Assembly (NCBI RefSeq): GCF_026151205.1
Contig: NC_087080.1
Location: forward strand, 443,812-507,811
Direction of reading: 5' to 3'
Source of the DNA: Bolinopsis microptera
Lineage: Eukaryota; Ctenophora; Tentaculata; Lobata; Bolinopsidae
DNA: 64,000 nucleotides
Position 1 is the stretch's first letter; each line of letters opens with the position of its first letter. The translations under genes were made by a program, and so were the position numbers. The notes below the pieces were generated by a model. It searched no databases, was not told where the DNA came from, and saw only the letters and a program-made list of their open reading frames with translations. This document shows positions 4,291-16,400 of this stretch, in pieces.

Positions 4291-4303
4291 ACTGTGAACG
4301 GAG

Positions 4304-4485
4304 AGTGGAGCTGCTGAGTGTTCAGAGTGTGGAGGGGGGAGTGTTGCTGGGGAGGATGGGCTCGCTCAGTGCACTCAGTGTACTCCGGGTTATTACTCTG
4401 TGGAGAGGACTTTGTGTGCTCCTTGTGCTCCTGGCTCCTTTAACAATATTACCGGGGCCAGCCAGTGTCAACTGTGTGGTGTGGG
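4304..4485 (+). CDS. Exon 1 (first recognised) of the kringle gene
   Basis: It encodes about 60 residues with two GCC2/GCC3-type modules, including CTQCTPGYYSVERTLCAPC and a following CAPGSFNNITGASQCQLC segment. The donor is GGG/GTGAGT at 4486, phase 2. The 5' limit is uncertain. An in-frame TGA lies just upstream of 4298, and the sequence before the exon is the end of the 22-bp array with no pyrimidine tract. An AG at 4302-4303 is only a default acceptor. Confidence 0.75.
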
Positions 4486-7400
4486 GTGAGTGAGGGTATA
4501 TTTTTTGACTGGTTCAAATTCTTTGATGGCCTTCAAATCAGTACGAAATAATAAAAAATTGGCCAAGGAATAAGAATTTTAGTGCCAAAAATGTGGACCC
4601 CCAAGTGGTATCAAAACTCGAATTAAAAAGGTAATAATTATTTTAGTCTCTGACTCTCTTGAGTCATGACACCACTTTAGGGTTAGAAAAGGGTTCCTGC
4701 TAGTAAAATTGTAAAACCCCTTCCTTTATCCCGGTATCCAACTAGTTAACATCACTTAATGTGTGTGTAGTGTGTGTTATGTAGCTTACGTTACTTAATC
4801 ATTTAATTTAACACCAGGTACGACGCCCCCCAGAACGCGAGTCTTGCTTGTGACATGTGTGAGCCAGGCGCCTTCTCCGACAACACCGGCACACCTGAGT
4901 GCAGTCTCTGTTCTCCGGGTCATGTTGTGGATATCTCCGGAGCTGAGGGATGTGATGCTTGTCCTCAGGGGTACGAACAGGTATTATAAGGGGTGTGATG
5001 CTTGTCCTCAGGGATACGAACAGGTATTATAAGGGGTGTGATGCTTGTACTCAGGGATACGAACAGGTATTATAAGGGGTGTGATGCTTGTCCTCAGGGA
5101 TACGAACAGGTAATATAAGGGGTGTGATGCTTGTCCTCAGGGATACGAACAGGTATTATAAGGGGTGTGATGCTTGTGCTCAGGGGTACGAACAGGTATT
5201 ATAAGGGGTGTGATGCTTGTCCTCAGGGATACGAACAGGTATTATAAGGGGTGTGATGCTTGTACTCAGGGGTACGAACAGGTATTATAAGGGGTGTGGT
5301 GCTTGTCCTCAGGGATACGAACAGGTATTATAAGGGGTGTGATGCTTGTCCTCAGGGATACGAACAGGTATTATAAGGGGTGTGATGCTTGTCCTCAGGG
5401 ATACGAACAGGTATTATAAGGGGTGTGATGCTTGTCCTCAGGGATACGAACAGGTATTATAAGGGGTGTGGTACTTGTCCTCAGGGATACGAACAGGTAT
5501 TATAAGGGGTGTGATGCTTGTCCTCAGGGATACGAACAGGTATTATAAGGGGTGTGATGCTTGTCCTCAGGGATACGAACAGGTATTATAAGGGGTGTGA
5601 TGCTTGTCCTCAGCGATACGAACAGGTATTATAAGGGGTGTGAAGCTTGTCCTCAGGGGTACAAACAGGTATTATAAGGGGTGTGATGCTTGTCCTCAGC
5701 GATACGAACAGGTATTATAAGGAGTGTGATGCTTGTCCTCAGGGATACGAACAGGTATTATAAGGAGTGTGATGCTTGTACTCAGGGATACGAACAGGTA
5801 TTATAAGGGGTGTGATGCTTGTCCTCAGGGATACGAACAGGTATTATAAGGGGTGTGATGCTTGTCCTCAGGGGTACGAACAGGTATTATAAGGGGTGTG
5901 GTGCTTGTCCTCAGGGGTACGAACAGGTATTATAAGGGGTGTAGTGCTTGTCCTCAGGGATACGAACAGGTATTATAAGGGGTGTGAAGCTTGTCCTCAG
6001 GGATACGAACAGGTATTATAAGGGGTGTGATGCTTGTCCTCAGGGATACGAACAGGTATTATAAGGGGTGTGATGCTTGTCCTCAGGGATATGAACAGGT
6101 ATTATAAGGGGTGTGATGCTTGTACTCAGGGATACGAACAGGTATTATAAGGGGTGTGATGCTTGTCCTCAGGGATACGAACAGGTATTATAAGGGGTGT
6201 GATGCTTGTCCTCAGGGATACGAACAGGTATTATAAGGGGTGTGAAGCTTGTCCTCAGGGATACGAACAGGTATTATAAGGGGTGTGATGCTTGTCCTCA
6301 GGGATACGAACAGGTATTATAAGGGGTGTGATGCTTGTCCTCAGGGATATGAACAGGTATTATAAGGGGTGTGATGCTTGTCCTCAGGGATACGAACAGG
6401 TATTATAAGGGGTGTGATGCTTGTCCTCAGGGATACGAACAGGTATTATAAGGGGTGTGATGCTTGTACTCAGGGATACGAACAGGTATTATAAGGGGTG
6501 TGGTGCTTGTTCTCAGGGATACGAACAGGTATTATAAGGGGTGTGATGCTTGTCCTCAGGGATACGAACAGGTATTATAAGGGGTGTGGTGCTTGTCCTC
6601 AGGGATACGAACAGGTATTATAAGGGGTGTGATGCTTGTCCTCAGGGATACGAACAGGTATTATAAGGGGTGTGATGCTTGTCCTCAGGGATATGAACAG
6701 GTATTATAAGGGGTGTGATGCTTGTCCTCAGGGATACGAACAGGTATTATAAGGGGTGTGATGCTTGTCCTCAGGGATACGAACAGGTATTATAAGGGGT
6801 GTGATGCTTGTACTCAGGGATACGAACAGGTATTATAAGGGGTGTGGTGCTTGTTCTCAGGGATACGAACAGGTATTATAAGGGGTGTGATGCTTGTCCT
6901 CAGGGATACGAACAGGTATTATAAGGGGTGTGGTGCTTGTCCTCAGGGATACGAACAGGTATTATAAGGGGTGTGATGCTTGTCCTCAGGGATACGAACA
7001 GGTATTATAAGGGGTGTGATGCTTGTCCTCAGGGATACGAACAGGTATTATAAGGGGTGTGATGCTTGTACTCAGGGGTACGAACAGGTATTATAAGGGG
7101 TGTGATGCTTGTCCTCAGGGATACGAACAGGTATTATAAGGGGTGTGATGCTTGTCCTCAGGGATACGAACAGGTAATATAAGGGGTGTGATGCTTGTAC
7201 TCAGGGATACGAACAGGTATTATAAGGGGTGTGATGCTTGTCCTCAGGGATACGAACAGGTAATATAAGGGGTGTGATGCTTGTCCTCAGGGATACGAAC
7301 AGGTATTATAAGGGGTGTGATGCTTGTCCTCAGGGGTACGAACAGGTATTATAAGGGGTGTGATGCTTGTCCTCAGGGATACGAACAGGTATTATAAGGG

Positions 7401-10400
7401 GTGTGGTGCTTGTCCTCAGGGATACGAACAGGTATTATAAGGGGTGTGGTGCTTGTCCTCAGGGATACGAACAGGTATTATAAGGGGTGTGATGCTTGTC
7501 CTCAGGGATACGAACAGGTAATATAAGGGGTGTGATGCTTGTCCTCAGGGGTACGAACAGGTATTATAAGGGGTGTGATACTTGTCCTCAGGGATACGAA
7601 CAGGTATTATAAGGGGTGTGATGCTTGTCCTCAGGGGTACGAACAGGTATTATAAGGGGTGTGATGCTTGTCCTCAGGGATACGAACAGGTATTATAAGG
7701 GGTGTGATGCTTGTCCTCAGGGATACGAACACGTATTATAAGGGGTGTGGTGCTTGTCCTCAGGGATACGAACACGTATTATAAGGGGTGTGATGCTTGT
7801 ACTCAGGGGTACGAACACGTATTATAAGGGGTGTGATGCTTGTCCTCAGGGGTACGAACAGGTATTATAAGGGGTGTGGTGCTTGTCCTCAGGGGTACGA
7901 ACAGGTATTATAAGGGGTGTGATGCTTGTCCTCAGGGATACGAACAGGTATTATAAGGGGTGTGATGCTTGTCCTCAGGGATACGAACACGTATTATAAG
8001 GGGTGTGATGCTTGTACTCAGGGGTACGAACACGTATTATAAGGGGTGTAATGCTTGTCCTCAGGGATACGAACAGGTATTATAATTGGTGTAATGCTTG
8101 TCCTCAGGGATACGAACAGGTATTATAAGGGGTGTGATGCTTGTCCTCAGGGATACGAACACGTATTATAAGGGGTGTGGTGCTTGTCCTCAGGGATACG
8201 AACACGTATTATAAGGGGTGTGATGCTTGTACTCAGGGGTACGAACACGTATTATAAGGGGTGTGATGCTTGTCCTCAGGGGTACGAACAGGTAATATAA
8301 GGGGTGTGATGCTTGTCCTCAGGGGTACGAACAGGTATTATAAGGGGTGTGATGCTTGTCCTCAGGGATACGAACAGGTATTATAAGGGGTGTGATGCTT
8401 GTCCTCAGGGATACGAACACGTATTATAAGGGGTGTGATGCTTGTACTCAGGGGTACGAACACGTATTATAAGGGGTGTAATGCTTGTCCTCAGGGATAC
8501 GAACAGGTATTATAATTGGTGTAATGCTTGTCCTCAGGGATACGAACAGGTATTATAAGGGGTGTGATGCTTGTACTCAGGGATACGAACACGTATTCTT
8601 AGTACTAACTACCAGTGTTTGTTAGACAGGAGGTCTATCGCTATATCCCAGCTATATAATATGATTTCAGCCTAAAGCAGGAGCGACCCAGTGTAAGATT
8701 TGCCCAGAGGGAACCTACACTGACTCAGAAGGAAGTGATAACTGTGTGTCCTGTCCGAGAGGAACGTACCAAAATAAGCAGGGTTAGTAACCTAGTAACC
8801 AGCTAGTTACCTAGTAACCAGCAAGTAACCAGCTAGTAACCAGCTAGTAACCAGCTAGTAACCAGCTAGTAAATGTGTGTCCTGCCCGAGTGGAACGTAC
8901 CAAAATAAGCAGGGTTTGTTTATGAAAAAGTAAAAAGAAGACCTGATTTAACCATAAAACGTTAGTTTATAAACTTGTATAACCACTGATTTATATCAGC
9001 GGTAACCATGGTAACTATATCAGGAGGTAACACCTGCTCTCCTTGTCCTGATGGGAAGACTACATCAGCTGAAGGAACGACCGGAATAGAAAAGTGTTAT
9101 TGTAAGTATTGAATGTAACCCCCCCCCCCTCCCCCTCCCCCAGTGTTATTGTTAGTATTGAATGAAGCACCCCCTCCCCCTTCCTTTTATGAGGGATTTT
9201 ATTAGACTCCAATTTTGCACAGCGAGAACTGTTTGTTTTTCAACTTAGTTAAAGTTTAGCTTAACTTTAAATTTTTATACATTTTTACAAAATAGTGTGA
9301 CCCCACTTTTGCAGGGGAGCAGTGTCCCATCGGTTACCATAGAAACTCGGATACTAATGATTGTGACGAGTGTTCTCAGGGAAGCTTTACAGACACTGTA
9401 GAGTCTCCTGAGTGTACGCCCTGTGCTATGGTGGGTAATACAACAACAACGTGTTACGCCACTGTAACACACCAGTGTTACGCCACTGTAACACACACAA
9501 CACACCAGTGTTACGCCACTGTAACACACACAACACACCAGTGTTACGCCACTGTAACACACAACACACCAGTGTTACGCCACTGTAACACACACAACAC
9601 ACCAGTGTTACGCCACTGTAACACACACAACACACCAGTGTTACGCCACTGTAACACACACAACACACCAGTGTTACGCCACTGTAACACACTCAACACA
9701 CCAGTGTTACGCCACTGTAACACACTCAACACACCAGTGTTACGCCACTGTAACACACACAACACACCAGTTTTACGCCACTGTAACACACACAACACAC
9801 CAGTGTTACACCACTGTAACACACTCAACACAGATTCACAGACACTCAACACAGATTTAAAAAGTTTTAAACTACATTTTGTATTGTTCAGATCTTCAGA
9901 TTAAATAATATTGTCTCCAGGGCTTCTTCAACCCGATCAGAAGACAAAGAAAGTGTCTTCAGTGCCCTGTAAAACACTGGACCAGATCTACTGGCTCCAT
10001 TCACCCCACCGACTGTATCGGTAAGTAACCTAGTAACCAGATAGTAACCTAGTAACCATATAGTAACCTAGTAACCAGATAGTAACCTAGTAACCAGATA
10101 GTAACCTAGTTACCAGATAGTAACCTAGTAACCAGATAGTAAACTAGTTACGAGATAGTAACCTAGTAACCAGATAGTAACCTAGTAACTTGATGATAAC
10201 CTGGTAACCAGATAGTAACCTAGTTACCATATAGTAACCTAGTAACTTGATAGTAACCTAGTTACGAGATATTAAACTAGTAACCAGCTAGGAACCTAGT
10301 AACCATATAGTAACCTAGTAACCAGATAGAAACCTATTAACCAGCTAGGAACCTAGTTACCAGATAGTAACCTAGTAATCAGATAGTAACCTATTAACCA

Positions 10401-13400
10401 GATAGTAACCTATTAACCAGATAGTAACCTAGTAACCAGCTAGGAACCAAGTAACCAGCTAGGAACCTAGTTACCAGATAGTAACCTAGTAACCAGATAG
10501 TAACCTATTAACCAGATAGTAACCTAGTAACCAGATAGTAACCTAGTAACCAGCTAGTAACCTAGTTACTAGATAGTAAGACCAAACCAACTATATTTAC
10601 CTCAATTCTCTAGTCTTTTCAGACGCAGAATCTTCTACACTCTCTGACTTCTTCTGATGTCTGGGACTTACGACCCCAGATGTAGCTTTCAACGACGTTT
10701 TAAGGGCCCAACGTTCAGCTGTTCATCAGGGTTAAACTGGGCAGGGTCTTTCAGCCAGCTGCCAGTTGTCACTCCAGGTCTTGTTGTAGCGACTAAGCCA
10801 GATAGTGTAGGAACCTTTCAGGGACACCACCGCTGTTGTGTTAAGTGCCCTCTTCTTCTTTGCCCGGGTGATGTTAAGGAAGTTGAAAATTCGGGGTAAT
10901 GTGTGGTGGTAGAATCCACGACATCCAACTTCTACTGTAAAGAGATATCCTTCCCAGCCTGCGGTCTCGATCTCCACCATTAGCTCTTCGTATCTCTTCT
11001 CTTTCCGGGATCTCTGGTCCTCAAAGTTCTCCTCGTTTCCACAGGTCAGCTCTATCAGGATGACTTTCCTGAGTGTGTTAGAGTATATTACCACATCAGG
11101 TCTGAGAGCTGTGTTGACAATATGTTGGGGGAATTGTCTTGTCCTTTCGTCCTCATCAAACACTAGTTTCCAGTCGTTACCTTCGTCTAGAAGATGAGGT
11201 TCTTCTGTAAGCCGTACTTCGGGTTTCCTGTAGGTTCCTTTTCCGGATACGAACTTCCTCCACTCTCTCTTTACTTCTGTCTTTGGGGTAGCACTGTTTA
11301 TCTCCCTCAGCTTCTCTGCAATTGGTTGCACGATTACCCTGAGCACCTGATCATGTCTCCAATTATACCTTCCTTGTTTAAGCGACACTGGGCAACACGT
11401 TAGAATGTGCTTTAGGTTGCACTGCTGACGCCCACAAAGGGGACAGTTGTTCGTGGAGCTGTAGTTCCAAAGCTGGAGGTTGCTAGGTGTACTTGCAACG
11501 TCGTGGATGGCATTTAGGTGGAACTTTGTCAGCTCGGGGCTCAAGGTATACAGCAGGCTTTGCCAGCCAGTGTCTAGCTGCATGGTGTTCTCCCAGGTTA
11601 GAAACTTTCCTTGGACTCTCTTATCGTAGAGAGTTTGAAGGAGCTCCTCTTCTTTCAGAGACTTAATTATCTCCACCAGTTGCTCCTTTTTGTTCTTCTT
11701 CCTCCTCTGATCACCGAATCCAATACCGGCTCCTTCCCTGGTCTGCACGTAGCCAATCAGTTCTTTGAAGTAGAGGTCTCTCTCCCTATTAGTCAGCTCC
11801 TTGGTGTAGTCCCATCTCTTCTTGTCTCTGTTGGTGTTTTCTCTGTACTCGAAAACCTCCCTCACTTTGGGGTCAACCGATGTCTTCAGCATATAGGCCT
11901 TGGACACCTGTAGACATTTGTACAGGTTGGAGATCTGCTTTAACGATAGTCCAAAGTGGTCTTTTGATCTGTACAGCACACTATTCGATATGGAAGTAGT
12001 AACTCCAAGCCATTTCTTCAAGTATCTGGTACAAAGAGCCTCTAGTGTCTGGATGAATGATACTGGGAGGTTGTATATCATAATATTCCACTGTACTTTG
12101 CTAGTTAGCATGTGGTTGTAGATCCAGCACTTGCTTGGTCCAGAGAGCTCCGCCATGTCTACTTTTTCCAGCTGGCCTGAAAGTTGAGTGGTGATTAGCT
12201 CTCTCGTCTCATCTTGGCCCAGGTTGACGTAAATCCAGTGACCAAGGAACTTTATCGGTGTGTCACCAAGGTACGCTACTTTCTCGTTTGCAATGATGAT
12301 CTCAGGGTCAAACGATCTGTAGGTATTGTCCACTACCTTCATTCCGAGAGCAATACACTTGCTGGGTTTAGCTCTCATCGTCCTTGTCCATGCTAAGAAT
12401 TCCTCCATTTGCCCGACCAGCCTCTTCATTTTGTCGAGTCTGTCAGACAGCAGGGTGAGATCATCTGCAAAAGCTCTGTTTGTAGTTGGCTCAGAGCTGA
12501 ACGACGGCTTGTATCCCAGTGTTCTGTCGACCTGAAGTAAATCCAAGAGTAGGTTGAATGCTATTAAGAATAGCACGACAGAAAGCGGGTCCCCTTGAAA
12601 CAACCCAATTAGGTAGTAGAACCACTCACTCTTCCACTTCTTCGTCTTCACCCGTACTACCAGTTCGTCGTAGTACTTGACAATATATTGGACCACTTCT
12701 TCTGGGAACTTGTAGTGCCGAAGCGCAAACACTATCAGCTCATGGGGTACTCTCCCATAAGCATTCATAAGATCCACCCATACTGCATACACCTGTCTTC
12801 TCTTACTCTTTGCATCCCGCAGTTCCTCCATGAGCGCTTGTGTGTGTTCTATGCATCCTGGCATCTTGCGCAGGAAGCCTTTTTGCACAGAGGTATCGAT
12901 GTACTTATTGGTGGTCATGTAGTCGAGCATTTTATCAGCTAGCATACCCATTGCCACTTTCCCACTGGTGTTAGTCATAGTGATGTTCCTAAACTTGCCA
13001 GGGTCACTAAGGTCCGTGGTCTTGGGAAGTAGGATGCTTTCTCCAATTCTCCACTGCAAGGGGACACTGTTTGATAACCAGAGTTTACTAATACACGCAT
13101 ACAATAGTTCTCTCAGCCTGGCACACCTTTTGTAAACTATGTATGGCACTCCGTTGGGCCCTGGTGAAGATACTTACTAGATAGTAACCTAGTAACCAGC
13201 TAATAACCTAGTAACCAGATAGTAACCTAGTAACCAGCTAGTAACTGTAACTCTATCAGGACCTATAATGACAATGTGTGATGGCACTAATATGACGGGT
13301 AACTGTACGACTTACTACGATGTAGAGCTATCAGTACCCTTCACCGCTCAGTCCCTTGAAGTAAAGGCCGGCAAGTTCAAGGTCTGTTCAGGCAAGAAAA

Positions 13401-16400
13401 TGTACCTGAAATGTGAGATGATCTCCTACCCGTTCAGGGCTGATGACGTCACTGATGACGTCACCAGACAGCTCTCTTTCAGTCCGCTCAGTTTAGAGTC
13501 TGACAGTGAGTTAACAGTGTTTAGTGTGTCTTGTTAAACTTATAATTATCAAAAAACATTGTTACATATTATGTCTGATTAAACATTGTTAAATATTATG
13601 TCTGATTGATATAAGAATATAATTTGGTATGAGAGAATCTTCTCCTTGATTTGATGATATCACATGTAAAATCCTTTACTTTAACAGTAACAAAGTCAGT
13701 GTAACTATAATAGTTACAAAGACAGTGTTACTATGGTAACTTTACCACTCCCCCTTTCTCCTCTCAGTTGACGACTCGTTCTGCTACGAAAACAGAGGAG
13801 AAGAGTTCGCTCCCACACGTTTCTACAACGCCACGGTCAACGGACACGGGTAAGTGGCTTTTTATAGCTGTGAGTTGATTCACGATGTCAATCCTTCGCA
13901 GCTCGGTGAGGCACAGTGGTGCATCTCGCCGATCTACCGAAGGTTGCGACTTGCGAGAAGCATTATTGGATGCGCGCGCGCGACCCAGTAGTGCATCGCG
14001 CTACAAAGCTGTGAGGGATCTCTCAGACACTTAATACTTTAGTTACTATAGCAATTATAATCCATGCTCTATAATACTCTTGTTGCTATAGCTACTATAA
14101 TCCATACTCTATGCTCTTGTTGCTATAGCTACTATAATCCATACTCTATAATACTCTTGTTGCTATAGTAATTATAATCCATACTCTATGCTCTAGTTGC
14201 TATAGCAACTATAATCCATACTCTATAATACTCTTGTTGCTATAGCAACTATAATCCATACTCTATGCTCTAGTTGCTATAGCAACTATAATCCATACTC
14301 TATAATACTCTTGTTGCTATAGCAATTATAATCCATATGCTCTATAATACTCTTGTTGCTATAGCAACTATAATCCATACTATATAATAATCTTGTTGCT
14401 ATAGCAACTATAATCCATACTCTATGCTTTAGTTGCTATAGCAATTATAATCCATACTCTATGCTCTAGTTGCTATAGCAACTATAATCCATACTCTATA
14501 ATACTCTTGTTGCTATAGCAATTATAATCCATACTCTATGCTCTAGTTGCTATAGCAACTATAATCCATACTCTATAATACTCTTGTTGCTATAGCAATT
14601 ATAATCCATGCTCTATAATACTCTTGTTGCTATAGCAACTATAATCCATACTATATAATACTCTTGTTGCTATAGCAACTATAATCCATACTCTATGCTT
14701 TAGTTGCTATAGCAATTATAATCCATACTCTATGCTCTAGTTGCTATAGCAACTATAATCCATACTATATAATACTCTTGTTGCTATAGCAACTATAATC
14801 CATACTCTATGCTCTAGTTGCTATAGCAATTATAATCCATACTCTATGCTCTAGTTGCTATAGCAACTATAATCCATACTCTATAATACTCTTGTTGCTA
14901 TAGCAATTATAATCCATACTCTATGCTCTAGTTGCTATAGCTACTATAATCCATACTCTATGCTCTAGTTGCTATAGCAATTATAATCCATACTCTATGC
15001 TCTAGTTGCTATAGCTACTATAATCCATACTCTATGCTCTAGTTGCTATAGCAACTATAACCCATACTCTATGCTCTAGTTGCTATAGCAACTATAACCC
15101 ATACTCTATACTCTAGTTGCTATAGCAACTATAATCCATACTCTATGCTCTAGTTGCTATAGCAACTATAATCCATACTCTATAATACTCTTGTTGCTAT
15201 AGCAATTATAATCCATACTCTATGCTTTAGTTGCTATAGCAATTATAACCCATACTCTATGCTCTAGTTGCTATAGCAACTATAACCCATACTCTATGGT
15301 CTAGTTGCTATAGCAACTATAACCCCATGTAATCTCACTTCCACTGCAGGTGTAAGAACTGGATATAGCAACTATAACCCCATGTAATCTCACTTCCACT
15401 GCAGGTGTAAGAACTGGATATAGCAACTATAACCCATGTAATCTCACTTCCACTGCAGGTGTAAGAACTGGATATAGCAACTATAACCCAATGTAATCTC
15501 ACTTCCACTGCAGGTGTAAGAACTGGATGGACACTCAGCACCCGGAAGCGGGAGATAACACGTACTGCGCTAATCCTGACCCTAAACAGAAGAACGAGCC
15601 GTGGTGCTACACCCACGACCCTGCCGTGGAATGGGAATACTGCTCTGTTCCTAAGTGTGGTCAGTAGTGTTACTATTATCTAATACTGTTCAGTTCCTAA
15701 GTGTGGTCAGTAGTGTTACTATTATCTAATACTGCTCTGTTCCTAAGTGTGGTCAGTTTTACTTTATATAGTCACTAATATTATCTAATACTGCTCTGTT
15801 CCTAAGTGTGGTCAGTAGTGTTACTATTATCTAACACTGTTCAGTTCCTAAGTGTGGTCAGTAGTGTTACTATTATCTAATACTGCTCTGTTCCTAAGTG
15901 TGGTCAGTTTTACTTTATATAGTCACTAATATTATCTAATACTGCTCTGTTCCTAAGTGTGGTCAGTAGTGTTACTATTATCTAATACTGCTCTGTTCCT
16001 AAGTGTGGTCAGTTTTACTTTATATAGTCACTAATATTATCTAATACTGCTCTGTTCCTAAGTGTGGTCAGTTTTACTTTATATAATAGTGTTACTATGG
16101 TTACATTACCTTATATGGTAGTTTGCAGACAATTAACCACCTTGATCCTCCCTCAGTATGGGACTTTGAGTGCTACACTGGTACCGGGTTTGAGTACAGG
16201 GGTACTCTAGCTCGCACGGAACAAGGCTACACTTGCCAGAACTGGCAGAGCGACTGGCCCCATCCTCATGTTAGTTTAATACTTTATTTGTTATTTGCTA
16301 AACTTTATTTAGGAGGAGAACTTAATACGAGACTAAGCGGCTCCTTCATAAAATAACGAAATGTTTATCTGCAGAGTTATCACCGTGGTAACGGGGCAGG

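Follow-up and report, generated by a model that had tools for sequence, protein, structure and literature searches.

Border-spanning minisatellites of the mirage kind in a plasminogen-like gene of the ctenophore Bolinopsis microptera

Splice junctions copied into introns

In the ctenophore Bolinopsis microptera, a plasminogen-like gene located in a window of 64,000 nucleotides (the whole stretch of DNA analysed; positions 1-64000 correspond to C9:443812-507811) carries within its introns tandem copies of its own exon-intron borders. Tandem repeats that cross such borders and contain splice signals are known from lancelets as mirages (PMC3087553, PMC3902484), and the ctenophore arrays are of this known kind, found in a new phylum and reaching an unusually large size. 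We consider it probable (at about 0.78) that they originated, as mirages of the lancelet type, in chance duplications straddling a border, which were tolerated as they are spliced out and then underwent ordinary minisatellite turnover.

The gene model of the window copy (manually assembled, with tblastn of the database protein P0001) comprises 12 exons with GT-AG at all borders and an open frame. Its coding pieces match P0001, annotated as 'plasminogen-like [Bolinopsis microptera]' in the protein database, at 97% over 97%, and a Pfam scan of the joined exons 2-10 recovered four Ephrin_rec_like stretches and two kringles. A second gene copy (hereafter copy A), situated upstream at a distance of ~102 kb and found in a 264-kb block (C9:303812-567811), likewise has an open model with GT-AG borders throughout, and shares 1469 of 1505 exon bases with the window copy. 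Five exon segments of P0001 are at 100% to copy A (tblastn), and on its sequence the protein is the predicted product of that copy.

Extra junctions were recovered by a border test, in which 12 exonic and 12 intronic nucleotides of each of the 22 borders were sought in the adjoining intron (<= 5 mismatches). In the window copy, 4 of the 22 borders had such extras, namely the donors of exon 2 (83 in addition to the first), exon 4 (1) and exon 9 (8) and the acceptor of exon 9 (3); at these four borders, copy A had 43, 1, 16 and 63, respectively. Donor border windows found no chance match when the 11 introns were shuffled 20 times at the mononucleotide level. The end of exon 3, duplicated once in both gene copies, was counted by eye and is not recovered by the 24-nt test. 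With its inclusion, 5 of the 22 modelled borders have intronic tandem copies (the same five in both gene copies), both 5' and 3' borders are affected (donors of exons 2, 4 and 9, acceptor of exon 9, end of exon 3), and all the extra copies sit on the intron side. The initial annotation had named four of these junctions (exon 2 donor with ~84 copies, exon 3 end with 1, exon 9 acceptor with 3 and exon 9 donor with 8), which are borne out by Tandem Repeats Finder (TRF), the border test and, for exon 3, the count by eye; its list was incomplete, as the exon 4 donor copy had been missed.

The largest array (TRF, unit alignment) begins at the true donor of exon 2 (4818..4980, plus strand as for all the exons and arrays described here; P0001 tblastn and gene model), which reads GTATTA at 4981, and extends over 4981..8597 as 84 units of 43 bp, each composed of 8 nt of intron head and 35 nt of exon tail. 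The end of exon 3 (8671..8782; gene model) and its single copy (~8874..8916, with ~40 exon nt and ~3 intron nt, delimited by eye; tblastn match 8865-8915) are separated by an 11-bp intronic minisatellite (8792..8872; TRF). Exon 4 (9024..9101; gene model) is followed by one copy of its donor (~9142..9164, with ~9 exon nt and ~14 intron nt; 24-nt border test and unit scan). Exon 9, which holds kringle 1 between its true acceptor and true donor (15514..15659; tblastn and gene model), is flanked on both sides (TRF and border test): three extra 55-bp units, with 41 nt of intron tail and 14 nt of exon head, lie at 15309..15473, and eight extra donor copies at 15660..16085, mostly 46 or 59 bp apart (copy A has further spacings). 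The exonic share of the units, initially given as 15-43 bases, is to be corrected to a range from ~9 nt (exon 4) to ~40 nt (exon 3). Array length is unstable, as seen between the window copy and copy A (83 vs 43, 3 vs 63 and 8 vs 16; the two are alleles or paralogues), and the arrays of each gene copy carry their own unit variants.

Consequences for splicing

In both gene copies, read-through of the true donors of exons 2, 3, 4 and 9 would run into a stop beginning at intron base 7, 3, 9 and 6, respectively, and a stop 17 nt past the junction would follow from the use of any of the exon 9 decoy acceptors, of which the window has 3 and copy A 63. The outermost site retains the reading frame, and the protein is predicted to result from the outermost sites only (first donor or last acceptor); the P0001 model leaves out every extra junction copy. 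We also considered the arrays as code for extra protein repeats and rejected this, because use of any inner site brings in a stop.

Most of the copies retain an intact splice core: among the units recovered by the core scan, 68 of 84 for exon 2 in the window and 36 of 41 in copy A, 2 of 2 and 63 of 63 for the exon 9 acceptor (in the window the scan found two of the three), and 8 of 8 and 16 of 16 for the exon 9 donor. Two readings had been offered initially, that junction copies are tolerated because they are spliced out and that splice junctions are favoured seeds for tandem duplication. The former is well supported by the anatomy, since the extras are all intronic, the outermost site is in frame and most of the copied sites are intact; it is better supported than the latter, for which the gene itself offers no demonstration and the genome-wide signal is mixed.

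The arrays would thus have started from short tandem duplications that by chance straddled an exon-intron border. Such seeds may survive since the extra copy falls in the intron and the outermost border still joins an intact exon; the copies would leave with the intron, and the array, free of coding constraint, could expand and contract like any other minisatellite. That the spliceosome picks the outermost site is suggested by the reading frames and the database protein, and correct splicing in vivo is, together with random seeding, the part of this explanation that we infer. The presence of several arrays in a single gene would follow from its short introns and from a neighbourhood very rich in minisatellites (tandem arrays cover 53% of the 264-kb C9 block vs 19% of a 50-kb block of C1).

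Relation to known systems

The initial annotation knew of no described system of this kind, a claim that the lancelet mirages overturn. These are reported from Adh3, the globins BflGb6 and BflGb9 and (PMC3902484) troponin C and PGBD5. Lancelet and ctenophore arrays have in common the border-spanning repeats, the splice signals within the units, the involvement of 5' and 3' borders and the unstable length; they differ in phylum and in size (up to 84 units here vs 3-6 in BflGb6). In the ctenophore, five borders are affected in one gene, and splicing is predicted from the frames and the database protein model. The lancelet Adh case is said to have been reported originally by Canestro in 2002. As mirages occur in a ctenophore, and probably in several of its genes (see below), they are not a cephalochordate peculiarity. 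A brief literature search found no ctenophore report of such border-spanning minisatellites.

Two further systems come close. The minisatellite of human 6-16/IFI6 provides multiple splice donors (Turri 1995 as cited in PMC2572611; PMC4526556), and its downstream repeat units act as alternative donors, whereas the inner donors of the ctenophore gene lead to an in-frame stop 3-9 nt past the border, so that coding use of the IFI6 type is not predicted for them. In the Rogers model of intron gain by tandem duplication, exemplified by the potato RdRp, a border-crossing duplication doubles the splice signals (PMC4974935) and a new intron arises, whereas the ctenophore gene has a complete 12-exon model in which the copies occupy introns already present and appear to have created none.

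Origin of the arrays

Seeding was compared with a null model in which tandem duplications occur uniformly wherever the extra copy ends up intronic (with the arrays collapsed, the 11 introns total ~2.1 kb). A hand-made list gave 15 seeds, of which 5 lie at borders and 10 are intron-internal; it omits the arrays that precede exon 1, a 12-bp repeat inside exon 7, a secondary stretch of 19 bp in intron 6 and any multiples of the same period. With 3-4 nt demanded on either side, border-spanning seeds numbered 5 against an expectation of 3.7-4.0 (P 0.30-0.36; at 3 nt, 5 against 3.9-4.0, P 0.34-0.36), and with 8 nt they numbered 4 against 2.8-2.85 (P 0.30-0.31; P 0.12-0.13 with all five counted). At 12 nt per side there were, by unit make-up, 2 against 1.9, the number being low because the units of exons 2, 3 and 4 fall short of that length. 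The gene shows no clear excess of border-spanning seeds over uniform seeding. In a villin-like control gene on C1, none of the 24 predicted borders was matched, with 4-8% of seeds expected at borders (its exons were predicted by a supervised gene finder, its introns are longer, and its last exon, of low complexity, is doubtful).

Several observations weigh against chance seeding. The 15 seeds were, as stated, compiled by hand, and 3 of the 10 intron-internal ones were seen in one gene copy only; if the four borders recovered by the 24-nt test are counted as such at 12 nt per side, P becomes 0.10 (0.02 for all five borders). Moreover, 16 of the 161 distinct array unit families in the 314 kb of the C9 and C1 blocks hold a donor-like site (defined as at least as good as the lower quartile of the plasminogen-like gene's own donors), against a mean of 5.8 in unmasked single-copy DNA (maximum 13 in 20). 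Over the 264.65-Mb assembly, the strong donor word CAGGTAAGT forms 497 tandem pairs (words 20-50 bases apart) and the reversed word none (single words: 2462 and 1212), which hints at a donor preference, although the contrast has one control word behind it and counts copies, which exceed loci in number.

The foremost alternative builds on these figures and proposes that splice junctions, mainly donors, are favoured seeds for tandem duplication, with breaks linked to transcription or splicing, or else base composition, as possible causes. Among the matches listed, 100 of the 497 tandem places fall at 13 loci on C1-C10. Six of these loci start where a plausible coding exon ends, and four of the six include the exon tail in the unit. 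In a local nine-letter-word test, 5 of 33 donor-like loci were in tandem, whereas the permuted sets averaged 0.74 (6 of the 300 had 5 or more). We do not rely on this last enrichment, since three of its tandem loci seem to belong to a single generic array, and the genome-wide contrast, besides its single control word, has to be read against arrays that are rich in GGTAA-like letters in the examined sequence. Compared with dinucleotide shuffles, the donor-holding families are not in excess (16 vs 14.5; maximum 20 in 20), which means that donor-like sites are not above composition, yet above single-copy DNA; acceptor-like sites numbered 2 in the units vs 1.5 in the shuffles and 1.9 in single-copy DNA. 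With no clear excess in the gene, and none of the (few) expected border matches in the control gene, we regard favoured seeding as improbable.

A bolder proposition, that splice donors are true hot spots of minisatellite birth in this genome, that mirages therefore recur across its genes and that the spliceosome selects the outermost among dozens of identical, full-strength sites by position alone, we hold to be unlikely; if true, it would make these arrays natural material for reading the rule of splice-site choice. The arrays of exons 2 and 9 offer a natural experiment, as dozens of nearly identical sites compete in them and the protein is predicted to come from the outermost alone; the two gene copies, with their different copy numbers, permit a comparison of dose. 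Junction arrays could, furthermore, supply material from which new introns and exons arise.

It is very improbable that the arrays are functional, i.e. tandem decoys or ratchet (recursive) sites by which splicing or the level of the transcript is adjusted. The exon 9 unit reads CAG/GTGTAAG (the slash marks the junction), an acceptor directly followed by a weak donor, and the exon 9 cores are unchanged while other bases vary: variants per site are 0 in the core vs 0.0143 outside it for the acceptor units of copy A, and 0 vs 0.0298 (window) and 0 vs 0.0119 (copy A) for the donor units. These cores lean weakly towards being kept, and the differences come from few variable sites in homogenised arrays. 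The exon 2 core of copy A is also less variable than the remainder of its unit (0.0163 vs 0.0325), whereas that of the window varies like the rest (0.0225 vs 0.0245), with 16 of 84 cores changed, and copy numbers are far apart between the two gene copies. As the copied sites are mostly intact and variation in the core does not exceed that outside it, there is no sign of decoys being destroyed.

Mirage-like loci elsewhere in the genome

At each of the 13 loci (L035-L047), 501 bases were examined, and four of them were found to be mirage-like, in that a plausible open coding exon precedes the first donor and its tail is repeated in the unit. The repeated tail measures 22 nt at L039 and 24 nt at L047 (no Pfam match in either) and 29 nt at L043, the exon of which resembles WD40 repeats (E 1.7e-5 and 0.0014 against WD40 models, under the curated cut-offs) and matches the PDB chains nvWRAP-T (E 1.9e-10) and PkwA (E 6e-10), the latter of which we take to be a WD40 protein. 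L044 is the less certain case, with a tail of 6 nt by script and of 14 nt with two mismatches by eye. The putative exons of L039, L047 and L044 are proposed on account of their open frame and of an acceptor identified visually. At L037 and L038 the array start coincides with the donor of a plausible exon, and only ~4 exon bases are included in the unit (the former exon has a weak F5/8-type C match, E 0.12; the latter is too short for a scan).

No exon was found upstream of the array, within the 501 bases, at L040, L041, L045 and L046, and at L035, L036 and L042 the array edge is ambiguous or lies beyond the fetched sequence; a donor array at C1:6658906, whose edge also lies beyond it, was counted neither way. 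Given the four mirage-like loci in other genes, mirages are probably not confined to the plasminogen-like gene and probably recur as a habit of this genome. L045 (C8:7268500-7269000) is a 37-bp array in which the unit consists of a pyrimidine-rich stretch and CAG/GTAAGT, like a row of recursive splice sites.

Gene copies and neighbouring features

The 264-kb C9 block contains two collinear segments of ~90-100 kb, arranged head to tail, the aligned pieces of which are 80-99% identical (pieces >= 200 bp, identity filter 80%). The joint of the duplicated segments lies at ~4301 of the window, inside exon 1 (4299..4485, plus strand, 5'-truncated; gene model), from which position, in mid-exon, the homology to copy A starts. 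Beyond the joint, copy A runs upstream into the remaining exon 1 and into more open stretches of the same repeat type, for which no near-identical counterpart was found elsewhere in the block; the window sequence passes, upstream of the joint, into a 22-bp minisatellite. To judge from this arrangement, the collinear segments would represent either a tandem segmental duplication or an unpurged haplotype, and the window gene, correspondingly, either a 5'-truncated duplicate or a second haplotype put end to end by the assembler.

This arrangement, in which copy A and the window copy may be alleles and not paralogues, is also what speaks for an assembly artefact (incorrect array lengths, or one haplotype appended to the other) as the source of the arrays themselves, a proposal that we find scarcely credible, given that arrays with their own unit variants are present in both copies and that exon-end arrays occur on other contigs too. 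Long reads can span arrays of this size (up to 3.6 kb).

The two gene copies also differ in intron 6, which measures 3239 bp in the window copy vs 387 bp in copy A. In the window it contains, on the minus strand, a reverse transcriptase open reading frame (10732..13173; RVT_1 and zf-RVT by Pfam, gene model) that is open for 813 codons from stop to stop and is flanked on both sides by 19-bp repeats.

Four relatives of the plasminogen-like gene, at 33-36% identity, were found at C8:1501796-1503100, C8:1506081-1507382, C8:1510879-1512180 and C11:17098334-17099635. Each aligns to query residues 2-425 within one open frame, and they are thus apparently intronless over these residues, in contrast to the 12-exon copies of C9.

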